Positions 45,492-52,165 of a DNA stretch of 64,000 nt are shown one piece after another (position 1 is the stretch's first letter; each line of letters starts with the position of its first letter). Origin of the DNA: Dactylosporangium roseum (GTDB lineage Bacteria > Actinomycetota > Actinomycetes > Mycobacteriales > Micromonosporaceae); the NCBI RefSeq assembly GCF_025264685.1, contig NZ_CP073721.1:6155501-6219500 (forward strand), in the 5' to 3' direction. A program made the translations under genes and the position numbers. The notes beneath the pieces were generated by a model that worked only from the letters and a program-made list of their open reading frames with translations, was not told the origin of the DNA and did no database searches.

Positions 45492-46217
45492 ATGCGCGTG
45501 GCGCTGTTCGTCACGTGCCTCGCCGACGCGATGTTCCCGCAGGTCGGCAAGGCCACCGTCGAGCTGATCGAGCGGCTCGGGCACGAGGTGGTGTTCCCCG
45601 AGGCGCAGACGTGCTGCGGGCAGATGCACATCAACACGGGGTACCGTCGCGACGCCGTCCGCCTCGTGGAGCACCACGTCCGCACCTTCGACCCGTTCGA
45701 CGCGATCGTCGCGCCGTCCGGCTCCTGCGTCGGCTCGGTCCGCCACCAGCACGCCGAGGTCGCCCGCCGGGCCGGGAAGGCGCAGCTCACCTCGCGCGCC
45801 GAGGACGTGGCCGCGCGCACCCACGAGCTGTCCGAGTTCCTGGTCGACGTCCTCGGGGTCACCGACGTCGGCGCACGCTACCCGCACCGGGTCACCTACC
45901 ACCCGACCTGCCACTCGCTGCGCATGCTGCGCGTCGGCGACCGGCCGCTGCGGCTGCTGCGGGAGGTCCGCGGCATCGACCTGGTCGAGCTGCCCGAGGC
46001 CGAGCAGTGCTGCGGCTTCGGCGGCACGTTCGCGCTGAAGAACGCCGACACGTCCGCGGCGATGCTCGCCGACAAGCTGCGCAACGTGCTGTCCACCTCG
46101 GCCGAGTTCGTGTCGGCGGGTGACTCGTCCTGCCTCATGCACATCGGTGGCGGGCTCTCCCGGCTGTCGGTGGAGACACGTCCCGTACACCTCGCGGAGA
46201 TCCTGGCGGCGACATGA
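45492..46217 (+). CDS. lutA: L-lactate utilisation protein LutA (Fe-S oxidoreductase subunit)
   Basis: 241 aa. It contains two CCG domains, QTCCGQMHINTGYR near 38 and EQCCGFGGTFALKN near 174, with the Cys clusters that bind Fe-S. With LutB and LutC it oxidises L-lactate to pyruvate. ATG 45492 follows GGAAGG at about 11 bases. Upstream TATCCT near 45400 would give a leader of about 85 bases. The lutB start overlaps its stop (ATGA). Confidence 0.92.
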   Translation: MRVALFVTCLADAMFPQVGKATVELIERLGHEVVFPEAQTCCGQMHINTGYRRDAVRLVEHHVRTFDPFDAIVAPSGSCVGSVRHQHAEVARRAGKAQLTSRAEDVAARTHELSEFLVDVLGVTDVGARYPHRVTYHPTCHSLRMLRVGDRPLRLLREVRGIDLVELPEAEQCCGFGGTFALKNADTSAAMLADKLRNVLSTSAEFVSAGDSSCLMHIGGGLSRLSVETRPVHLAEILAAT

Positions 46218-47689
46218 CGACCTTCCTCGGTATGCCCACGGTCGCCCCGCGCGGCGTCGGACAGTTGCGCGGCGACGAGCCGTTCCCGGCCGCGGCCCGC
46301 AAGGCGCTGGCCGACGACCAGTTGCGGCGCAATCTCGGCCACGCCACCCGCACGATCCGCGCCAAGCGCGCCGCGGTCGTGGGCGAGGTGCCCGACTGGG
46401 AGGAACTGCGCCGCGCCGGCGAGGCGATCAAGGCCCGCACGATGGCCACCCTGGACACCCAGTTGGAGCGGCTGGAGCGGGAGGTCATCGCCCGCGGCGG
46501 CACGGTCCACTGGGCCCGCGACGCCAACGAGGCCAACCGGATCGTGCTCGACCTGGTCCGGGCCACCGGCGCCGACGAGGTCGTCAAGGTCAAGTCGATG
46601 GCGACCCAGGAGATCGGGCTCAACGAGGCCCTGGCGGCCGGCGGCGTCGCGGCCTGGGAGACCGACCTCGCGGAGCTGATCGTCCAGCTCGGCCACGACA
46701 AGCCCTCACACATCCTGGTGCCGGCCATCCACCGCAACCGCGCGGAGATCCGCGACATCTTCCTGCGCGAGATGCCGGGGGTCGACCCGGACCTGACGGA
46801 CGAGCCGCGCCGGCTGGCCATGGCGGCCCGCGCCCACCTGCGGCGGAAGTTCCTGACGGCGCGGGTCGCCGTGTCGGGCGCCAACTTCGCCGTCGCCGAG
46901 ACCGGGACGCTCGCCGTCGTCGAGTCCGAGGGCAACGGCCGGATGTGCCTGACCCTGCCGCGGACGCTCATCACGGTGATGGGCATCGAGAAGGTCGTCC
47001 CGGCGTGGACCGACCTGGAGGTGTTCCTCCAGCTCCTCCCCCGCTCTTCGACGGGCGAGCGGATGAATCCGTACACGTCGCTGTGGACCGGCGTCACGCC
47101 CGGCGACGGCCCGCGGGAGTTCCACCTCGTCCTGCTCGACAACGGCCGGACCGCGGTCCTCGCCGACGAGGCCGGCCGCTCCGCGCTGCACTGCATCCGG
47201 TGCAGCGCCTGCCTCAACGTCTGCCCGGTGTACGAGCGCACCGGCGGCCACGCCTACGGCTCCGTCTACCCCGGCCCGATCGGCGCGGTGCTGAGCCCCC
47301 AGTTGACCGGCGTCGAGGACAACGCGTCGCTGCCCTACGCCTCCAGCCTCTGCGGCGCCTGCTTCGACGCCTGCCCGGTGCGGATCGACATCCCGAGCCT
47401 GCTCGTCCACCTGCGGGCCGAGCACGTCGAGGAGCGTGCCAAGCGGGCGGTGCCGTCACCCGAGGCCATCGGCATGGCGGCCGGGTCGTGGGTGATGGCC
47501 CGGCCGGGCCGGTTCCGCGGCGCCGAGCGGCTGATGCGGCTGGGGCGGGTCCTGGGCCGGCGGCACGACCGGATCTCGGCGCTGCCGCCGCCGCTGTCGG
47601 CGTGGACGGCGAGCCGCGACCTGCCCCGCCCGCCGGCCCAGACGTTCCGCGAGTGGTGGAAGGCCCGCGCCGCCAGGAGCGCGTCGTGA
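46214..47689 (+). CDS. lutB: L-lactate utilisation protein LutB (ferredoxin-type Fe-S protein)
   Basis: 491 aa. The N-terminal 290 residues form the LUD domain (TMATLDTQLERLEREV, VAVSGANFAVAETGTLAVVESEGNGRM). Two 4Fe-4S clusters are bound by CIRCSACLNVCPVY near 327-340 and CGACFDACPVRID near 380-392. The C-terminal region (SAWTASRDLPRPPAQTFREWWK) is normal for LutB. It is coupled to lutA by a 4-base overlap and to lutC by a GTGA overlap. Confidence 0.93.
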   Translation: MTTFLGMPTVAPRGVGQLRGDEPFPAAARKALADDQLRRNLGHATRTIRAKRAAVVGEVPDWEELRRAGEAIKARTMATLDTQLERLEREVIARGGTVHWARDANEANRIVLDLVRATGADEVVKVKSMATQEIGLNEALAAGGVAAWETDLAELIVQLGHDKPSHILVPAIHRNRAEIRDIFLREMPGVDPDLTDEPRRLAMAARAHLRRKFLTARVAVSGANFAVAETGTLAVVESEGNGRMCLTLPRTLITVMGIEKVVPAWTDLEVFLQLLPRSSTGERMNPYTSLWTGVTPGDGPREFHLVLLDNGRTAVLADEAGRSALHCIRCSACLNVCPVYERTGGHAYGSVYPGPIGAVLSPQLTGVEDNASLPYASSLCGACFDACPVRIDIPSLLVHLRAEHVEERAKRAVPSPEAIGMAAGSWVMARPGRFRGAERLMRLGRVLGRRHDRISALPPPLSAWTASRDLPRPPAQTFREWWKARAARSAS

Positions 47690-48309
47690 CCGCGCGGGAC
47701 GACGTGCTGGCCCGCATCCGCTCGGCGCTCGGGCCCGCCCCGGTCGTTCCGGATCCCCCGCGGGACTACCGCCGGGCCGGCTCGCTGCTCCCCGGCGACC
47801 CGGCGCTCCTCGACCAGTTGGTCGACCGGCTGGAGGACTACAAGGCGACGGTGATCCGCACCTCCCGCGCCGCCCTGGCGGCCGACCTCCGCTCGGCGCT
47901 GGCCGGGGCGCTGCCGGTCGGCGGACGGCTGATCGTGCCGCCGGGCCTGCCGCCCGAGTGGGGTGTCGAGGACGCCGTGGTCGACGACGGCACGCTCGAC
48001 GCGGCGGCCCTCGACGGCATCGCCGGTGTCCTGACCGCGTGCGCGGCGGCGGTGGCCGAGACCGGGACGATCGCCCTCGACGGCGGCCCGGACCAGGGCC
48101 GCCGGGCGATCACGCTGGTTCCCGACCGGCACGTCTGCGTGGTCCGGGCGGACCAGGTCGTCCAGACCGTGCCGGACCTCCTGGCCCGCCTGACCCCGAC
48201 CAACCCGCTGACCCTGATCAGCGGCCCGTCGGCGACGAGCGACATCGAGCTCGACCGCGTCGAGGGCGTCCACGGCCCGCGCACCCTGGTCGTCCTGCTG
48301 GTCCGCTGA
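47686..48309 (+). CDS. lutC: L-lactate utilisation protein LutC
   Basis: 207 aa, LUD domain only: RDDVLARIRSALGPAP at the N-terminus and the box AAVAETGTIALDGGPDQGRRAITLVPDRHVCVV, then LISGPSATSDIELDRVEGVHGPRTLVVLLV. It is the third subunit of the lactate oxidase complex. GTG 47686 overlaps the lutB stop. No GntR-type lut regulator is adjacent. A GC-rich hairpin follows the gene. Confidence 0.92.
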   Translation: MTARDDVLARIRSALGPAPVVPDPPRDYRRAGSLLPGDPALLDQLVDRLEDYKATVIRTSRAALAADLRSALAGALPVGGRLIVPPGLPPEWGVEDAVVDDGTLDAAALDGIAGVLTACAAAVAETGTIALDGGPDQGRRAITLVPDRHVCVVRADQVVQTVPDLLARLTPTNPLTLISGPSATSDIELDRVEGVHGPRTLVVLLVR

Positions 48310-48435: not shown

Positions 48436-49080
48436 TCACGGTGCGGGGCTGACCGTGCGCCGGCCGAGATCGTGGAGCAGCGCGTCCAGCGTGTCGTCGT
48501 CGGCCCAGCCGTTGACGGACACGAGACCGTCGGCCGCCACCGTGATCTCCAGGCGGTCCGGGGTCGACCGCGCCGCGGCCAGCAGGTCCGGGAAGCGGTC
48601 GGAGAGGGGCACGAACTCCTGGTTGGTCGAGCCGGCCCACGGGCGGGCGCGGTCCACGAGCCCGGCCACGAACGGGCCGGCGATCAGCAGGTCGGTGGCC
48701 GCCAGCAGCGCCGCCACACCGGTCCGTCCGCCGCGGACGGCCGCGTCGAGCTGCGCCGTGGTGTAGCCCGAAAAGGTCATGACGGAGCGGCCGGCGTCCC
48801 GGACGCCGGCCGCCACCGCGGCGAGCGGGGCGGCGTGGTCGAACGGTTCCCCGCCGAGCAGGGTCAGGCCGTCGGTCTCCTCGGCCAGGACGCGCGCCAG
48901 CAGGTCCGTGGCGGTCCACTCCGCGCCGCCGCGAAACGTCCACAGGTGCGGGTTGAAGCAGCCCGCGCAGTGGATCGTGCAGCCCTGCACCCATACGGCT
49001 GTCCGCTCGCCGGGCCCCTCGGCACGGGTTCGCGCGAGGTACCGCCCGATGCGGACGCGGTCCTCAGAAGTCGAGGACAC
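48436..49080 (-). CDS. 4Fe-4S single-cluster (NrdG-like, radical-SAM-type) protein of the Ycf46 operon
   Basis: 214 aa. Cys34, Cys38 and Cys41 in VQGCTIHCAGCFNPH form the CxxxCxxC cluster site of radical SAM activases. LTLLGGEPF follows and matches the SAM-binding GGE motif. A C-terminal extension (STNQEFVPLSDRF, ITVAADGLVSVNGW) resembles NrdG relatives, but no anaerobic ribonucleotide reductase is nearby. It overlaps the helix-hairpin-helix gene by 17 bases and is the last gene of a five-gene coupled operon. It may activate or modify a partner in that set. Confidence 0.8.
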   Translation of the reverse strand: MSSTSEDRVRIGRYLARTRAEGPGERTAVWVQGCTIHCAGCFNPHLWTFRGGAEWTATDLLARVLAEETDGLTLLGGEPFDHAAPLAAVAAGVRDAGRSVMTFSGYTTAQLDAAVRGGRTGVAALLAATDLLIAGPFVAGLVDRARPWAGSTNQEFVPLSDRFPDLLAAARSTPDRLEITVAADGLVSVNGWADDDTLDALLHDLGRRTVSPAP

Positions 49081-49897
49081 GGCCGGCGGACGGGATGTCG
49101 GGGCGGGAGCCGCAGCGCACCTGGTGCCGCAGCCGGGCGAACTGGTGCGGGGCCAACTGCGCGACGATGGCGAACTCCTCGATCGACCCGAAGCCGCCGC
49201 GGGCCGTGCGCTCGGCGACGATCCGCTCGGCGCCGGCCAGGTCGAACTCGCCGAACCCGGCCAGCTCGGCCGCGGTGGCGGTGTTGACGTCGACCGGCCC
49301 GAACACCGGCGCCGCGCCCTCGCCCGGGAGACCGGACGTCGGGTCCGGGAAGCCGAACCCGACCGGCGTGCCCGGGGACGGAGACAGAGACGGGGACGGG
49401 GACCCCGGGAACCGGGACGAGGGCGCGGCCTGAACCGGACCGGGCGTGGCCGGAAACGCGGCCTGGGGCGACACGGGCACGGCCGGGGACGCTGACGGTG
49501 GCGGCGCGGCCTGAACCGGACCGAACGGGGCCGGGCCGAAACCCGCCGGAGCCGGCGGGAACGACGGGGGCGGCGCCAGCCGCCGGGCCGCCGCCAGCCG
49601 CTCCTCCTGCCAGCGCAGCCACCCCGGGTTCACGATCAGGGAGTGGATGACGCTCGCCAGCCAGAGCCCGAAGAACGTGAGCGCGAGGTTCCCGCTGGCC
49701 GGCGAGTCACGGTCCACCCGCTCAAAGGCGATGAACACGGCCCACGTCGCCAGCAGGTAGCCCAGGCCGCTCACCCACCACGCGGGGCGCCGGGCGCGCA
49801 GGCCGACGACGAGCAGGCCGAGGCCGCTCAGGCAGCCCAGGCCGAGCAGCGACAGCAGGACCCACCCGCTGCTCAGCAGTTTCCGGCTAAAGGACAT
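49064..49897 (-). CDS. Membrane protein with C-terminal helix-hairpin-helix domain
   Basis: 277 aa. Three hydrophobic segments occupy about 10-95 (WVLLSLLGLGCLSGLGLLVVGL, WVSGLGYLLATWAVFIAF, LALTFFGLWLASVIHSLIV). A 100-residue Pro/Ser/Ala/Gly linker follows. The C-terminal ComEA-like helix-hairpin-helix is VDVNTATAAELAGFGEFDLAGAERIVAERTARGGFGSIEEF. Such domains bind DNA or act as protein contacts. Its start overlaps the DUF2997 gene and its end overlaps the radical-SAM gene. Confidence 0.75.
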   Translation of the reverse strand: MSFSRKLLSSGWVLLSLLGLGCLSGLGLLVVGLRARRPAWWVSGLGYLLATWAVFIAFERVDRDSPASGNLALTFFGLWLASVIHSLIVNPGWLRWQEERLAAARRLAPPPSFPPAPAGFGPAPFGPVQAAPPPSASPAVPVSPQAAFPATPGPVQAAPSSRFPGSPSPSLSPSPGTPVGFGFPDPTSGLPGEGAAPVFGPVDVNTATAAELAGFGEFDLAGAERIVAERTARGGFGSIEEFAIVAQLAPHQFARLRHQVRCGSRPDIPSAGRVLDF

Positions 49898-50099
49898 CGT
49901 GGTCTTCCTGTCTGGCGCGGTGGGTGGCGGTCGTGGTGCCGCTCGCGGTGTAGTCGGCCGTGAAGGCGCTCCGCACGGCCCGGGCCTCCAGCAGGTCCTC
50001 CAGCACGGTGACGTAGTCGAGGCAGGCCGAACCGGGGATGCCCAGTGTCTCCGCGGTCACGGTGCCGTCCGCGGCGACGGTCACGACGATACGTTTCAC
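49887..50099 (-). CDS. DUF2997-like small protein
   Basis: 70 aa. MKRIVVTVAADGTVTAETLGIPGSACLDYVTVLEDLL matches the pattern of DUF2997 proteins, which open with a beta hairpin and carry a conserved C-L-D before a helix. The assignment is from recollection. No function is established. Its ATG overlaps the DUF1257 stop (ATGA) and its stop overlaps the helix-hairpin-helix gene, so expression is locked to its neighbours. Confidence 0.72.
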   Translation of the reverse strand: MKRIVVTVAADGTVTAETLGIPGSACLDYVTVLEDLLEARAVRSAFTADYTASGTTTATHRARQEDHDVL

Positions 50100-50536
50100 G
50101 CGTGCTCCACGGCGAACACCAGCCGCACCGCCGCGTCCGGGGTCACGGTGCGCGACTCGAGCCGCAGGCCGGCCGCCGGGGCCCGCTCCTGCAGCCGGGC
50201 GAGGACCGCCTGCTGCACCTGACGGCCGTAGGCGGCGTCGACCGCTCGGACGATCTCCACCGCCCGGGGCTCGTCGACGTCACCGGTGAAATGGGCGGTC
50301 CAGATGCCCTCGCCGTCCCGGCCGAACCGGGTCCGCACACCGGCCCAGTCGGCCACCACGTCGTCGCCGTCGCGGGAGACCTCCGCCGCGCACGCGCGCA
50401 GCGCCTCGGCCAGCAGGGAGCTGTCGCGCATGCGGGTCTGCACCCGGCACACGGTCCTGGAGTCCGCGCCGACGGCGGCGGCCCGAGCCGAGACGGCCGC
50501 CACCGCCAAGGGGATCAGCAGCAGGGAGATGCTCAT
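50096..50536 (-). CDS. DUF1257 (Ycf35-like) protein with N-terminal membrane anchor
   Basis: 146 aa. An N-terminal hydrophobic helix (SISLLLIPLAVAAVSA) is followed by the domain: MRDSSLLAEALRACAAEV, DVVADWAGVRTRFGRDGEGIWTAHFTGD, DAAYGRQVQQAVLARLQERAPAAGLRLESRTVTPDAAVRLVF. The layout fits DUF1257, the family of plastid/cyanobacterial Ycf35, of unknown function; the membrane anchor differs from the soluble form. It starts 9 bases after the AAA+ gene and overlaps the DUF2997 gene. Confidence 0.7.
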   Translation of the reverse strand: MSISLLLIPLAVAAVSARAAAVGADSRTVCRVQTRMRDSSLLAEALRACAAEVSRDGDDVVADWAGVRTRFGRDGEGIWTAHFTGDVDEPRAVEIVRAVDAAYGRQVQQAVLARLQERAPAAGLRLESRTVTPDAAVRLVFAVEHA

Positions 50537-50545
50537 GCGGTACCC

Positions 50546-52165
50546 CTAGATCTCCAGTGTCCGGCCGTGGCGCGCGACGAACGGTACGGGAGCGGTCGGC
50601 GGCTCCTCGTCCGGATCCCAGTCCTCGGCCGCGGTCGCGGCGACCGCGCGGGTCTTCGCCCAGAGCCGGATGTCGTCGAGCTTCTCGGCCTGGGTCACGC
50701 TCAGCGGCACCATCGCGGTCACGGCCCGCACCAGGTCGTCCCGGCGCAGCGGGCGACGCTCCGAGAACGCGTCGAACAGCCCGGCGACGACCGCCTGCTC
50801 GATCTCGGCGCCGGAGTACCCGGCGGTCAGATCGCCGACCTCGCGCAGCAGCGCGTCGTCCAGGGCGAGCCCGCCGGCGACCGCGGGCTTGCGGAGCCGG
50901 CGGCTCAGGTGGACGTTCCAGATCGAGGTGCGCTCGGCGCGGGTGGGCAGGTCGACGAAGAAGATCTCGTCGAAGCGGCCCTTGCGCAGCAGTTCCGGCG
51001 GCAGCCGCTCGATGTCGTTGGCGGTGGCGATGACGAAGACCGGCCTGGTCTTCTCCTGCATCCAGGTGAGGAACGTGCCGAAGACGCGCGACGACGTGCC
51101 GCTGTCGTTGCCGGTACCGCTGGAGAAGCCCTTCTCGATCTCGTCGACCCACAGGACGCAGGGCGAGGTGGCCTCGGCCGTGCGGATCGCGGCGCGCATG
51201 TTGTGCTCGCTGGAGCCGATGAGCCCGGAGAAGACCCGGCCGATGTCCAGCTTGAGCAGCGGCAGCCCCCACGCGGCGGCGACCGCCTTCGCGGTCAGCG
51301 ACTTGCCGCAGCCGGGCACGCCGGTGATGAGCACGCCCTTGGGCGCCGGCAGGCCGTAGTCGGCGGCGGCCGCGAGCCACGAATTGTCCCGCTTGGCGAG
51401 CCACCGCTTGAGGTTCTCCAGGCCGCCGACGTCGGCGAGGCGCACATCGGCGTCGACGAACTCCAGCAGGCCCGACTTGCGGACGGTCTGGCGCTTCTCC
51501 TCGTGCACGACGCCGAGGTCGTCGACGTCGAGGATGCCGTCGTTGACCATCGCGCGGGCGAAGGCGTTCTCCGCCTCGTGGAGCGTGAGCCCGACGGCGG
51601 CCTTGGCGAACTTCTCGCGGCCGACCGCGTCGAGGTCGATGCGGATCCGGCCGCTCGCCGCGTTGCTCGCGATCATCGACTCCAGCACGCCGCGGATCTC
51701 CGCCTCGGTCGGCAGCGGGAAGTCGACGATGGTCACGTCCTTGTCGAGGTCGGGCGGAATGCGCAGCATCGGCGCGACGACGACGAGGGTGCGCGGCACG
51801 GTGCCGCTCTTGAAGGCGGTGGCGATGTCCCGCAGCCGCCGCACGACGGTGGGCAGGGCGGGGATGTCACCGCCGAGCGAGTTGTGCAGGTCGCGGAAGA
51901 CGAAGAGGCCGGGCTCCTGGAGGCGCAGGACCGCGTCGAGGGCGTTGTCGGGCTCCATGGTGTGCTGGCGGGCCGCCCCGTCGGGCTGCAGCAGCCCGGT
52001 CGTCGCCGACCAGGTCCACACCGGCCGCGGGGTGCGGATGAGCGCCGCGTCACCGGCGACGGCGGCGAGCTCGGCGAGCACCCGGTGCTCCTCGAAAGAC
52101 TCCACGTAGAGGACCGGGAACCTGGCCTTCAAGAGCTGGGCCAGGTCGTTGCGAAAACCGGTCAC
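50546..52165 (-). CDS. AAA+ ATPase, Ycf46-like
   Basis: 539 aa. The N-terminal 235 residues hold a second, degenerate ATPase-like fold (PVLYVESFEEHRVLAELAAV, GLFVFRDLHNSL, TLVVVAP), as in Ycf46. The AAA+ core has Walker A GVPGCGKS (282-289), Walker B VLWVDEIEKG and the sensor region VIATAND, then RKGRFDEIFFV. GTG 52165 is preferred: GGAGG lies 4 bases before it and the VTGFRNDL start is natural; ATG 52213 sits 6 bases after a -10. It heads the five-gene operon and is probably its motor or remodeller. Confidence 0.85.
   Translation of the reverse strand: MTGFRNDLAQLLKARFPVLYVESFEEHRVLAELAAVAGDAALIRTPRPVWTWSATTGLLQPDGAARQHTMEPDNALDAVLRLQEPGLFVFRDLHNSLGGDIPALPTVVRRLRDIATAFKSGTVPRTLVVVAPMLRIPPDLDKDVTIVDFPLPTEAEIRGVLESMIASNAASGRIRIDLDAVGREKFAKAAVGLTLHEAENAFARAMVNDGILDVDDLGVVHEEKRQTVRKSGLLEFVDADVRLADVGGLENLKRWLAKRDNSWLAAAADYGLPAPKGVLITGVPGCGKSLTAKAVAAAWGLPLLKLDIGRVFSGLIGSSEHNMRAAIRTAEATSPCVLWVDEIEKGFSSGTGNDSGTSSRVFGTFLTWMQEKTRPVFVIATANDIERLPPELLRKGRFDEIFFVDLPTRAERTSIWNVHLSRRLRKPAVAGGLALDDALLREVGDLTAGYSGAEIEQAVVAGLFDAFSERRPLRRDDLVRAVTAMVPLSVTQAEKLDDIRLWAKTRAVAATAAEDWDPDEEPPTAPVPFVARHGRTLEI

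Follow-up and report, generated by a model that had tools for sequence, protein, structure and literature searches.

A five-gene AAA+ ATPase unit of Dactylosporangium roseum and a C-terminal tail shared by its ATPase and membrane protein

DUF1257 (Ycf35), DUF2997 and Ycf46-type AAA+ proteins have been labelled 'function unknown' in cyanobacteria and plastids. What might proteins related to these do when they are encoded together in an actinobacterium, and how do the parts fit together? We addressed these questions at a locus of Dactylosporangium roseum that lies within 64,000 nucleotides of contig NZ_CP073721.1 (positions 6,155,501 to 6,219,500), referred to here as the window. Five minus-strand genes (window 52165-48436) encode, in 5' to 3' order, an AAA+ ATPase, a DUF1257-like protein, a DUF2997 protein, a helix-hairpin-helix (HhH) membrane protein and an NrdG-like radical S-adenosylmethionine (SAM) protein (Table 1). 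A first-pass annotation of the window had proposed that these five genes form an operon, and all of its open reading frames (ORFs) and junction sizes were found again: a 9-bp gap separates the AAA+ and DUF1257 genes, and overlaps of 4 bp (DUF1257/DUF2997), 11 bp (DUF2997/HhH) and 17 bp (HhH/radical SAM) follow. The 4-bp overlap reads GTGA, not ATGA as had been reported. The AAA+ gene starts with GTG at 52165, just behind a GGAGG, in agreement with the starts of its relatives; a search of the operon for promoters and terminators detected no consensus sites.

The gene families of this operon almost certainly constitute a conserved module. The strongest clue to how its parts fit together is a short C-terminal tail, absent from the first-pass annotation, that the AAA+ protein shares with the membrane protein.

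A linked module and a shared tail

When 84,980 species genomes were scanned with the AAA+ alignment, at least 80 loci were obtained; these are the best-scoring ones and not a census. The module families were detected by iterated local profiles. Among the matches listed, AAA+, DUF1257, DUF2997 and radical SAM proteins were all present in 50 of 93 AAA loci from at least eight phyla, among them Actinomycetota, Bacillota, Bacteroidota, Planctomycetota, Verrucomicrobiota, Spirochaetota, Armatimonadota and Myxococcota. Linkage of the core families is far above chance, and is made more informative by the fact that gene order varies. Over 46 loci the pairwise distances of the four core proteins correlate (r=0.73-0.89), with shared phylogeny contributing. 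Linkage in other genomes, on which the operon proposal depended, was thus confirmed; the suggestion that the novelty lies in the combination occurring in an actinobacterium was not, since the four-gene core is found in many phyla.

Within the Micromonosporaceae the distribution is patchy. Twelve of the 61 family genomes sampled contain DUF2997; in the phylum, only 2 of 396 genomes have a match above its cut-off. The identical five-gene order occurs in seven other genomes of the family, and the entire unit is carried by three actinobacterial plasmids (from Paenarthrobacter and Rhodococcus), one of them conjugative, on which the DUF1257 protein is annotated merely as 'hypothetical protein'.

The tail belongs to the class GR-x-[VIL]-[DE]-[FYLI]-COOH and is found both on the AAA+ protein, where it takes the form (R)GGR-x-(V/I/L)-(D/E)-(F/Y/L/I), and on a fifth, usually membrane, protein. 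It terminates 31 of 399 proteins encoded by same-strand neighbours of the AAA+ gene. The corresponding figures are none of 200 for neighbours on the opposite strand and 2 of 726 for genes farther away (p=8e-15), the pattern having been fixed after inspection of the C-termini of these same loci. AAA+ proteins accompanied by the module carry it more often (44/63) than those without the module (5/29). Because the pattern had been chosen on the survey data, the plasmid copies provide a fair test, and all three five-gene plasmid loci bear the tail on the AAA+ protein (RGGRQIDF, RGGRTFEF, RGGRRIDF) as well as on the HhH protein (ARKLDI, GRRLEF, GRTLDL). The AAA+ protein of a Treponema plasmid ends RKLEM.

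In about 26 loci the tail carriers are transmembrane (TM)/HhH proteins. Most carriers have two to four TM segments together with an HhH domain, and some have TM segments only. The Verrucomicrobiota carrier is a polytopic rhomboid-like TM protein, in the position of a rhomboid, and in the contractile injection clusters of spirochaetes the tail is borne by a small soluble protein. As the carriers differ in domain content, the tail is more constant than the domain to which it is attached. Four Chloroflexota genomes encode tailed AAA+ proteins, and searches for DUF2997, DUF1257 and the module-type radical SAM protein gave no match anywhere in these genomes; at the three Chloroflexota loci inspected, the AAA+ gene is followed by one for a polytopic membrane protein ending LELD. 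That tailed AAA+ proteins persist there without the other three families suggests that the tail concerns the pairing of AAA+ with a membrane protein, and not the iron-sulfur unit. The reduced loci of Sanguibacter and Flavimobilis, described below, point the same way. The same genomes disfavour DUF2997 as an obligatory receptor of the tail, a role that we had considered.

Short C-terminal tails, those of HbYX proteins and of HslU, dock AAA+ rings to their partners. The tail described here is likewise a short C-terminal peptide on an AAA+ subunit; it differs from these in its consensus, in its presence also on the membrane partner and in being known here from sequence.

Table 1. Genes, motifs and segments of the operon (coordinates in the window)
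Feature	Position	Strand	Remarks
AAA+ ATPase	50546..52165	-	539 aa; Pfam AAA 3.3e-32
DUF1257 homologue, predicted N-terminal membrane anchor	50096..50536	-	146 aa; assigned by hhalign profile comparison
DUF2997 protein	49887..50099	-	70 aa; Pfam PF11211 2.6e-13
Membrane protein with Pro-rich linker and ComEA/GspK-like HhH domain	49064..49897	-	HHH_3 2e-10
NrdG-like radical SAM protein (Fer4_12)	48436..49080	-	214 aa; Pfam Fer4_12 5.5e-29
Walker A of AAA+, GVPGCGKS	51299..51322	-	G282, P284, G285, G287, K288 and S289 invariant
C-terminal tail of AAA+, GRTLEI	50549..50566	-	tail class among AAA+ proteins with module
Hydrophobic N-terminal segment of DUF1257 protein, MSISLLLIPLAVAAVSARAAAV	50471..50536	-	mean hydropathy 2.2
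GxxGxxC motif of DUF2997, GIPGSAC	50022..50042	-	Cys26 at predicted helix N-terminus
Predicted membrane region of HhH protein	49628..49864	-	hydropathy and sequence
HhH domain	49115..49297	-	Pfam HHH_3, residues 201-261, 2e-10; ComEA type
C-terminal tail of HhH protein, GRVLDF	49067..49084	-	same class as AAA+ tail
CX3CX2C cluster motif of radical SAM protein, CTIHCAGC	48958..48981	-	present together with GGE

The component proteins and their relatives

The AAA+ protein has the motifs of an active ATPase. About 220 aa make up its N-terminal region; the C-terminal part is an intact AAA module, in which the Walker A, Walker B and arginine-finger columns are invariant in 13 homologues; its closest relatives in the PDB are of p97/CDC48 type. 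The first-pass label 'Ycf46-like' holds loosely and fails for the Ycf46 subfamily, since in the AAA+ tree the window protein falls in a 37-row clade (support 99) that leaves out cyanobacterial Ycf46 and has members from Actinomycetota, Bacillota, Bacteroidota, Armatimonadota and Melainabacteria. Ycf46 of cyanobacteria and plastids (slr0374), which has been described within a stress operon together with slr0373 and slr0376, resembles the window protein in overall length, in the AAA module and at about 40% identity; it differs in belonging to a separate clade and in lacking the C-terminal tail. At three loci from Acidobacteriota, Verrucomicrobiota and Myxococcota, two or three related AAA+ genes stand beside DUF2997, and each locus has one AAA+ protein with yet another variant of the tail, K/R-R-I/V-FEV.

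Profile searches of Pfam recovered the AAA, DUF2997, HHH_3 and Fer4_12 families, in line with the first-pass annotation; DUF1257 was missed by Pfam and emerged from profile-profile comparison. Neither the window protein nor any other part of the genome matches PF06868 directly, NCBIfam and PADLOC likewise gave no match to the protein, and 19 of 51 aligned members of the family match PF06868 directly. When 17 anchored actinobacterial homologues were compared by hhalign with canonical MSHFT-type DUF1257 (E=6e-9, probability 96%) and with the planctomycete/verrucomicrobial class (E=1.3e-10), both matches argued that the assignment is right; as judged from these profiles, the window protein is a divergent, membrane-anchored class of DUF1257. 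The predicted anchor, already proposed in the first-pass annotation, agrees with the homologues, about three-quarters of which, across phyla, have a hydrophobic N-terminus with a central proline; most keep the pattern MS-x-hydrophobic-P-hydrophobic, and the soluble MSHFT class lacks the anchor. The AF2 (AlphaFold2) model of the protein has a pLDDT (predicted local distance difference test score) of 85. A PDB sequence search with DUF1257 and DUF2997 returned nothing credible.

DUF2997 belongs to PF11211 (50 bits against a cut-off of 24.1) and is the sole copy in the 8.2-Mb genome. Across 58 homologues G12 and C26 are invariant and G20 and G23 exceed 90%, and the AF2 model places a helix at residues 25-37 with moderate confidence (pLDDT 67). 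Its GxxGxxC motif is found also in cyanobacteria, where DUF2997 is linked to ycf35 and a [4Fe-4S] ferredoxin. This persistence argues that the thiol is a general feature of DUF2997 and that an iron-sulfur partner is a recurring companion. In the radical SAM protein, CX3CX2C and GGE are retained in 58 of 59 module matches, the exception being an ORF fragment. Membership of Fer4_12 and both motifs are shared with NrdG and the activases of pyruvate formate-lyase.

The HhH protein has two predicted hydrophobic TM segments, which upholds the earlier view that it is membrane-bound. Most aligned relatives have an x-PH motif in place of the second GhG hairpin, which binds DNA in ComEA-type HhH domains. 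A tail-bearing Bacteroidota protein (L054:2473-4173) contains seven consecutive HhH repeats.

The cyanobacterial cluster DUF2997-ycf35(DUF1257)-fed7, in which fed7 encodes the [4Fe-4S] ferredoxin (PMC4284462), invites direct comparison. Both it and the window operon place DUF2997, with the common GxxGxxC, beside DUF1257 and an iron-sulfur protein. In the cyanobacterial cluster, however, the ferredoxin replaces the radical SAM protein, DUF1257 is of the soluble MSHFT type, the HhH protein is missing and no AAA gene is listed. Loss of Fed7 lowers tolerance of H2O2 and Cd in cyanobacteria (PMC4284462, PMC4307280). Many stresses elicit a response from the slr0374 (Ycf46) operon, and extracellular carbonic anhydrase activity falls when it is lost (PMC7496141).

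A candidate membrane-tethered machine and its alternatives

The most economical reading of these data is that the operon encodes an AAA+ remodelling machine that is tethered to the membrane, includes an iron-sulfur/thiol module and probably has a role in stress. The first-pass annotation had already proposed a membrane-tethered complex remodelled by the ATPase. We favour this reading above the others that we considered, at somewhat less than even probability. In such a self-contained, horizontally mobile unit the AAA+ protein, with its single catalytically intact p97-like module, would be the motor, held at the membrane by the HhH protein and by the N-terminally anchored DUF1257. The tail common to motor and HhH protein would be a docking tail and serve as a handle that is read by the AAA+ assembly itself, in the manner of HbYX and HslU, while the DUF2997 thiol, DUF1257 and the radical SAM protein would form an attached iron-sulfur/thiol unit that conditions the motor or senses redox state for it. 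Under redox or metal stress such a machine would probably use ATP to remodel or extract a protein associated with the membrane. A stress-related role is likelier than defence in view of the stress physiology of cyanobacterial Fed7 and Ycf46 and of neighbouring genes that bear no sign of defence.

Several observations weigh against this reading. Docking by the tail is deduced from sequence, and the strict pattern is missing from about one-third of module AAA+ proteins and from cyanobacterial Ycf46. Sanguibacter and Flavimobilis, in which no DUF2997 or DUF1257 was found, encode an AAA+ protein and a TM protein ending GRRLDL, so that the client tail is kept while that of the AAA+ is altered or missing. 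The cyanobacterial phenotypes come from distant homologues. Foldseek searches with the AF2 models gave no significant match to a solved fold for either DUF2997 or the DUF1257 protein, the hits of the latter being scattered generic folds (best E 0.02). The proposal that the N-terminal half of the AAA+ protein is a degenerate AAA domain was not supported (probability 6%).

Two alternatives assign the central role to other parts of the unit. The radical SAM protein may modify DUF2997 at or near the GxxGxxC cysteine, or another subunit, with AAA+ and DUF1257 installing or presenting the product; the intact motifs of the enzyme, the invariance of the cysteine and the correlation of radical SAM with DUF2997 distances (r=0.74) are as expected. 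Nevertheless, the same cysteine is present in cyanobacterial DUF2997 linked to a ferredoxin and to no module-type radical SAM gene, and is therefore not a substrate specific to the radical SAM protein; nor does the unit contain a RiPP-like (ribosomally synthesized and post-translationally modified peptide) leader or a protease gene. We consider this modification unlikely. Slightly less likely still is a tail that acts as a degron or processing tag; membrane proteins bearing it would then be unfolded by the AAA+ protein, whose own tail would be autoregulatory. Recognition of C-terminal tags is common among AAA+ enzymes, and in HhH proteins the tail ends a long unstructured linker. However, the carrier is encoded within the unit and has been conserved as a stable subunit that has its own domain, and here again the missing protease speaks against this reading.

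The remaining alternatives place the unit in a known process. An anti-phage defence system would fit the sporadic presence of DUF2997 noted above, the location on plasmids, including a conjugative one, and a weak match of the AAA+ protein to IetA in PADLOC. The PADLOC matches (IetA, mad8 and TRIP13 models), however, cover the generic AAA domain only, no other module protein matches PADLOC and so no system-specific subunit was recognized, 102 neighbours of related loci give generic ABC-ATPase matches only, and the operon is surrounded by ordinary metabolism and transport genes; we regard defence as improbable. It is more improbable still that the radical SAM protein is the activase of a glycyl-radical enzyme, for example anaerobic ribonucleotide reductase, and that the AAA+ protein serves as chaperone. 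NrdG (TIGR02491) is indeed its best NCBIfam model (4e-24), but the score is below the equivalog cut-off (85 vs 126 bits), no glycyl-radical gene was seen in the window locus or in other module neighbourhoods, and the genome's single Gly_radical match lies 1.5 Mb away, beside its own radical-SAM activase-like gene. Slimmest of all are the chances that a cyanobacterial Ycf46/Ycf35 function, serving CO2 uptake or photosynthesis, has been relocated here. Homology of DUF1257 and DUF2997 and the effect of Ycf46 on CO2 utilisation in Synechocystis (PMC7496141) favour it; the hosts are non-photosynthetic across phyla, and the AAA+ protein belongs to a clade apart from the tailless cyanobacterial Ycf46.

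Extended beyond the window, the idea of a membrane-tethered machine leads to a broader and more tentative possibility. The loci may represent an undescribed class of membrane-tethered AAA+ machines present in many phyla and built by means of a tail code on the motor and on interchangeable membrane or injection partners, in which DUF1257, DUF2997 and the radical SAM protein would be a dedicated redox/radical maturation unit. A search of the open-licence literature of PubMed Central found no description of the five-gene unit or of the tail, an absence that argues weakly for novelty. A docking code, if that is what the tail is, predicts partners in the contractile injection clusters of spirochaetes and in the rhomboid/S26/T2SSE gene sets of Planctomycetota and Verrucomicrobiota. 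Plasmids and cultured actinobacteria offer a compact five-gene version whose tail would predict contacts, which opens the question to simple pull-down and knock-out tests.

Variant loci and genomic surroundings

A second type of locus was found in the family, with DUF2997, radical SAM and AAA together in four family loci, some of which also have HEAT/WD40-like and Hsp70 genes. At five loci of this type the order is DUF2997-radical SAM-AAA+, a soluble MSHFT-type DUF1257 is encoded in the locus, and HEAT/WD40-like and Hsp70-like proteins occur in several. One genome of the window's own genus carries both types of module.

In Planctomycetota and Verrucomicrobiota, nine loci combine a rhomboid, a radical SAM protein, AAA+, anchored DUF1257 and DUF2997, the last followed by a Zn-ribbon/S26-like TM protein, a TPR protein and a T2SSE (PilT-like) ATPase. 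The radical SAM protein of this version is of another subfamily, PflA-like by eye. Five contractile-injection clusters of Spirochaetota contain AAA+ and DUF2997, mostly with a radical SAM protein, and a small or pentapeptide-like protein with the same class of tail, for example GGRFGRLELN; one cluster has CIS_tube and phage sheath Pfam matches. These clusters share AAA+ and DUF2997 with the window, and their tailed protein is a small one; their sheath, tube and baseplate genes have no counterpart in the window.

Immediately beyond the operon, the convergent genes at window 45492-48309 resemble, by eye, a LutABC lactate-utilisation set.

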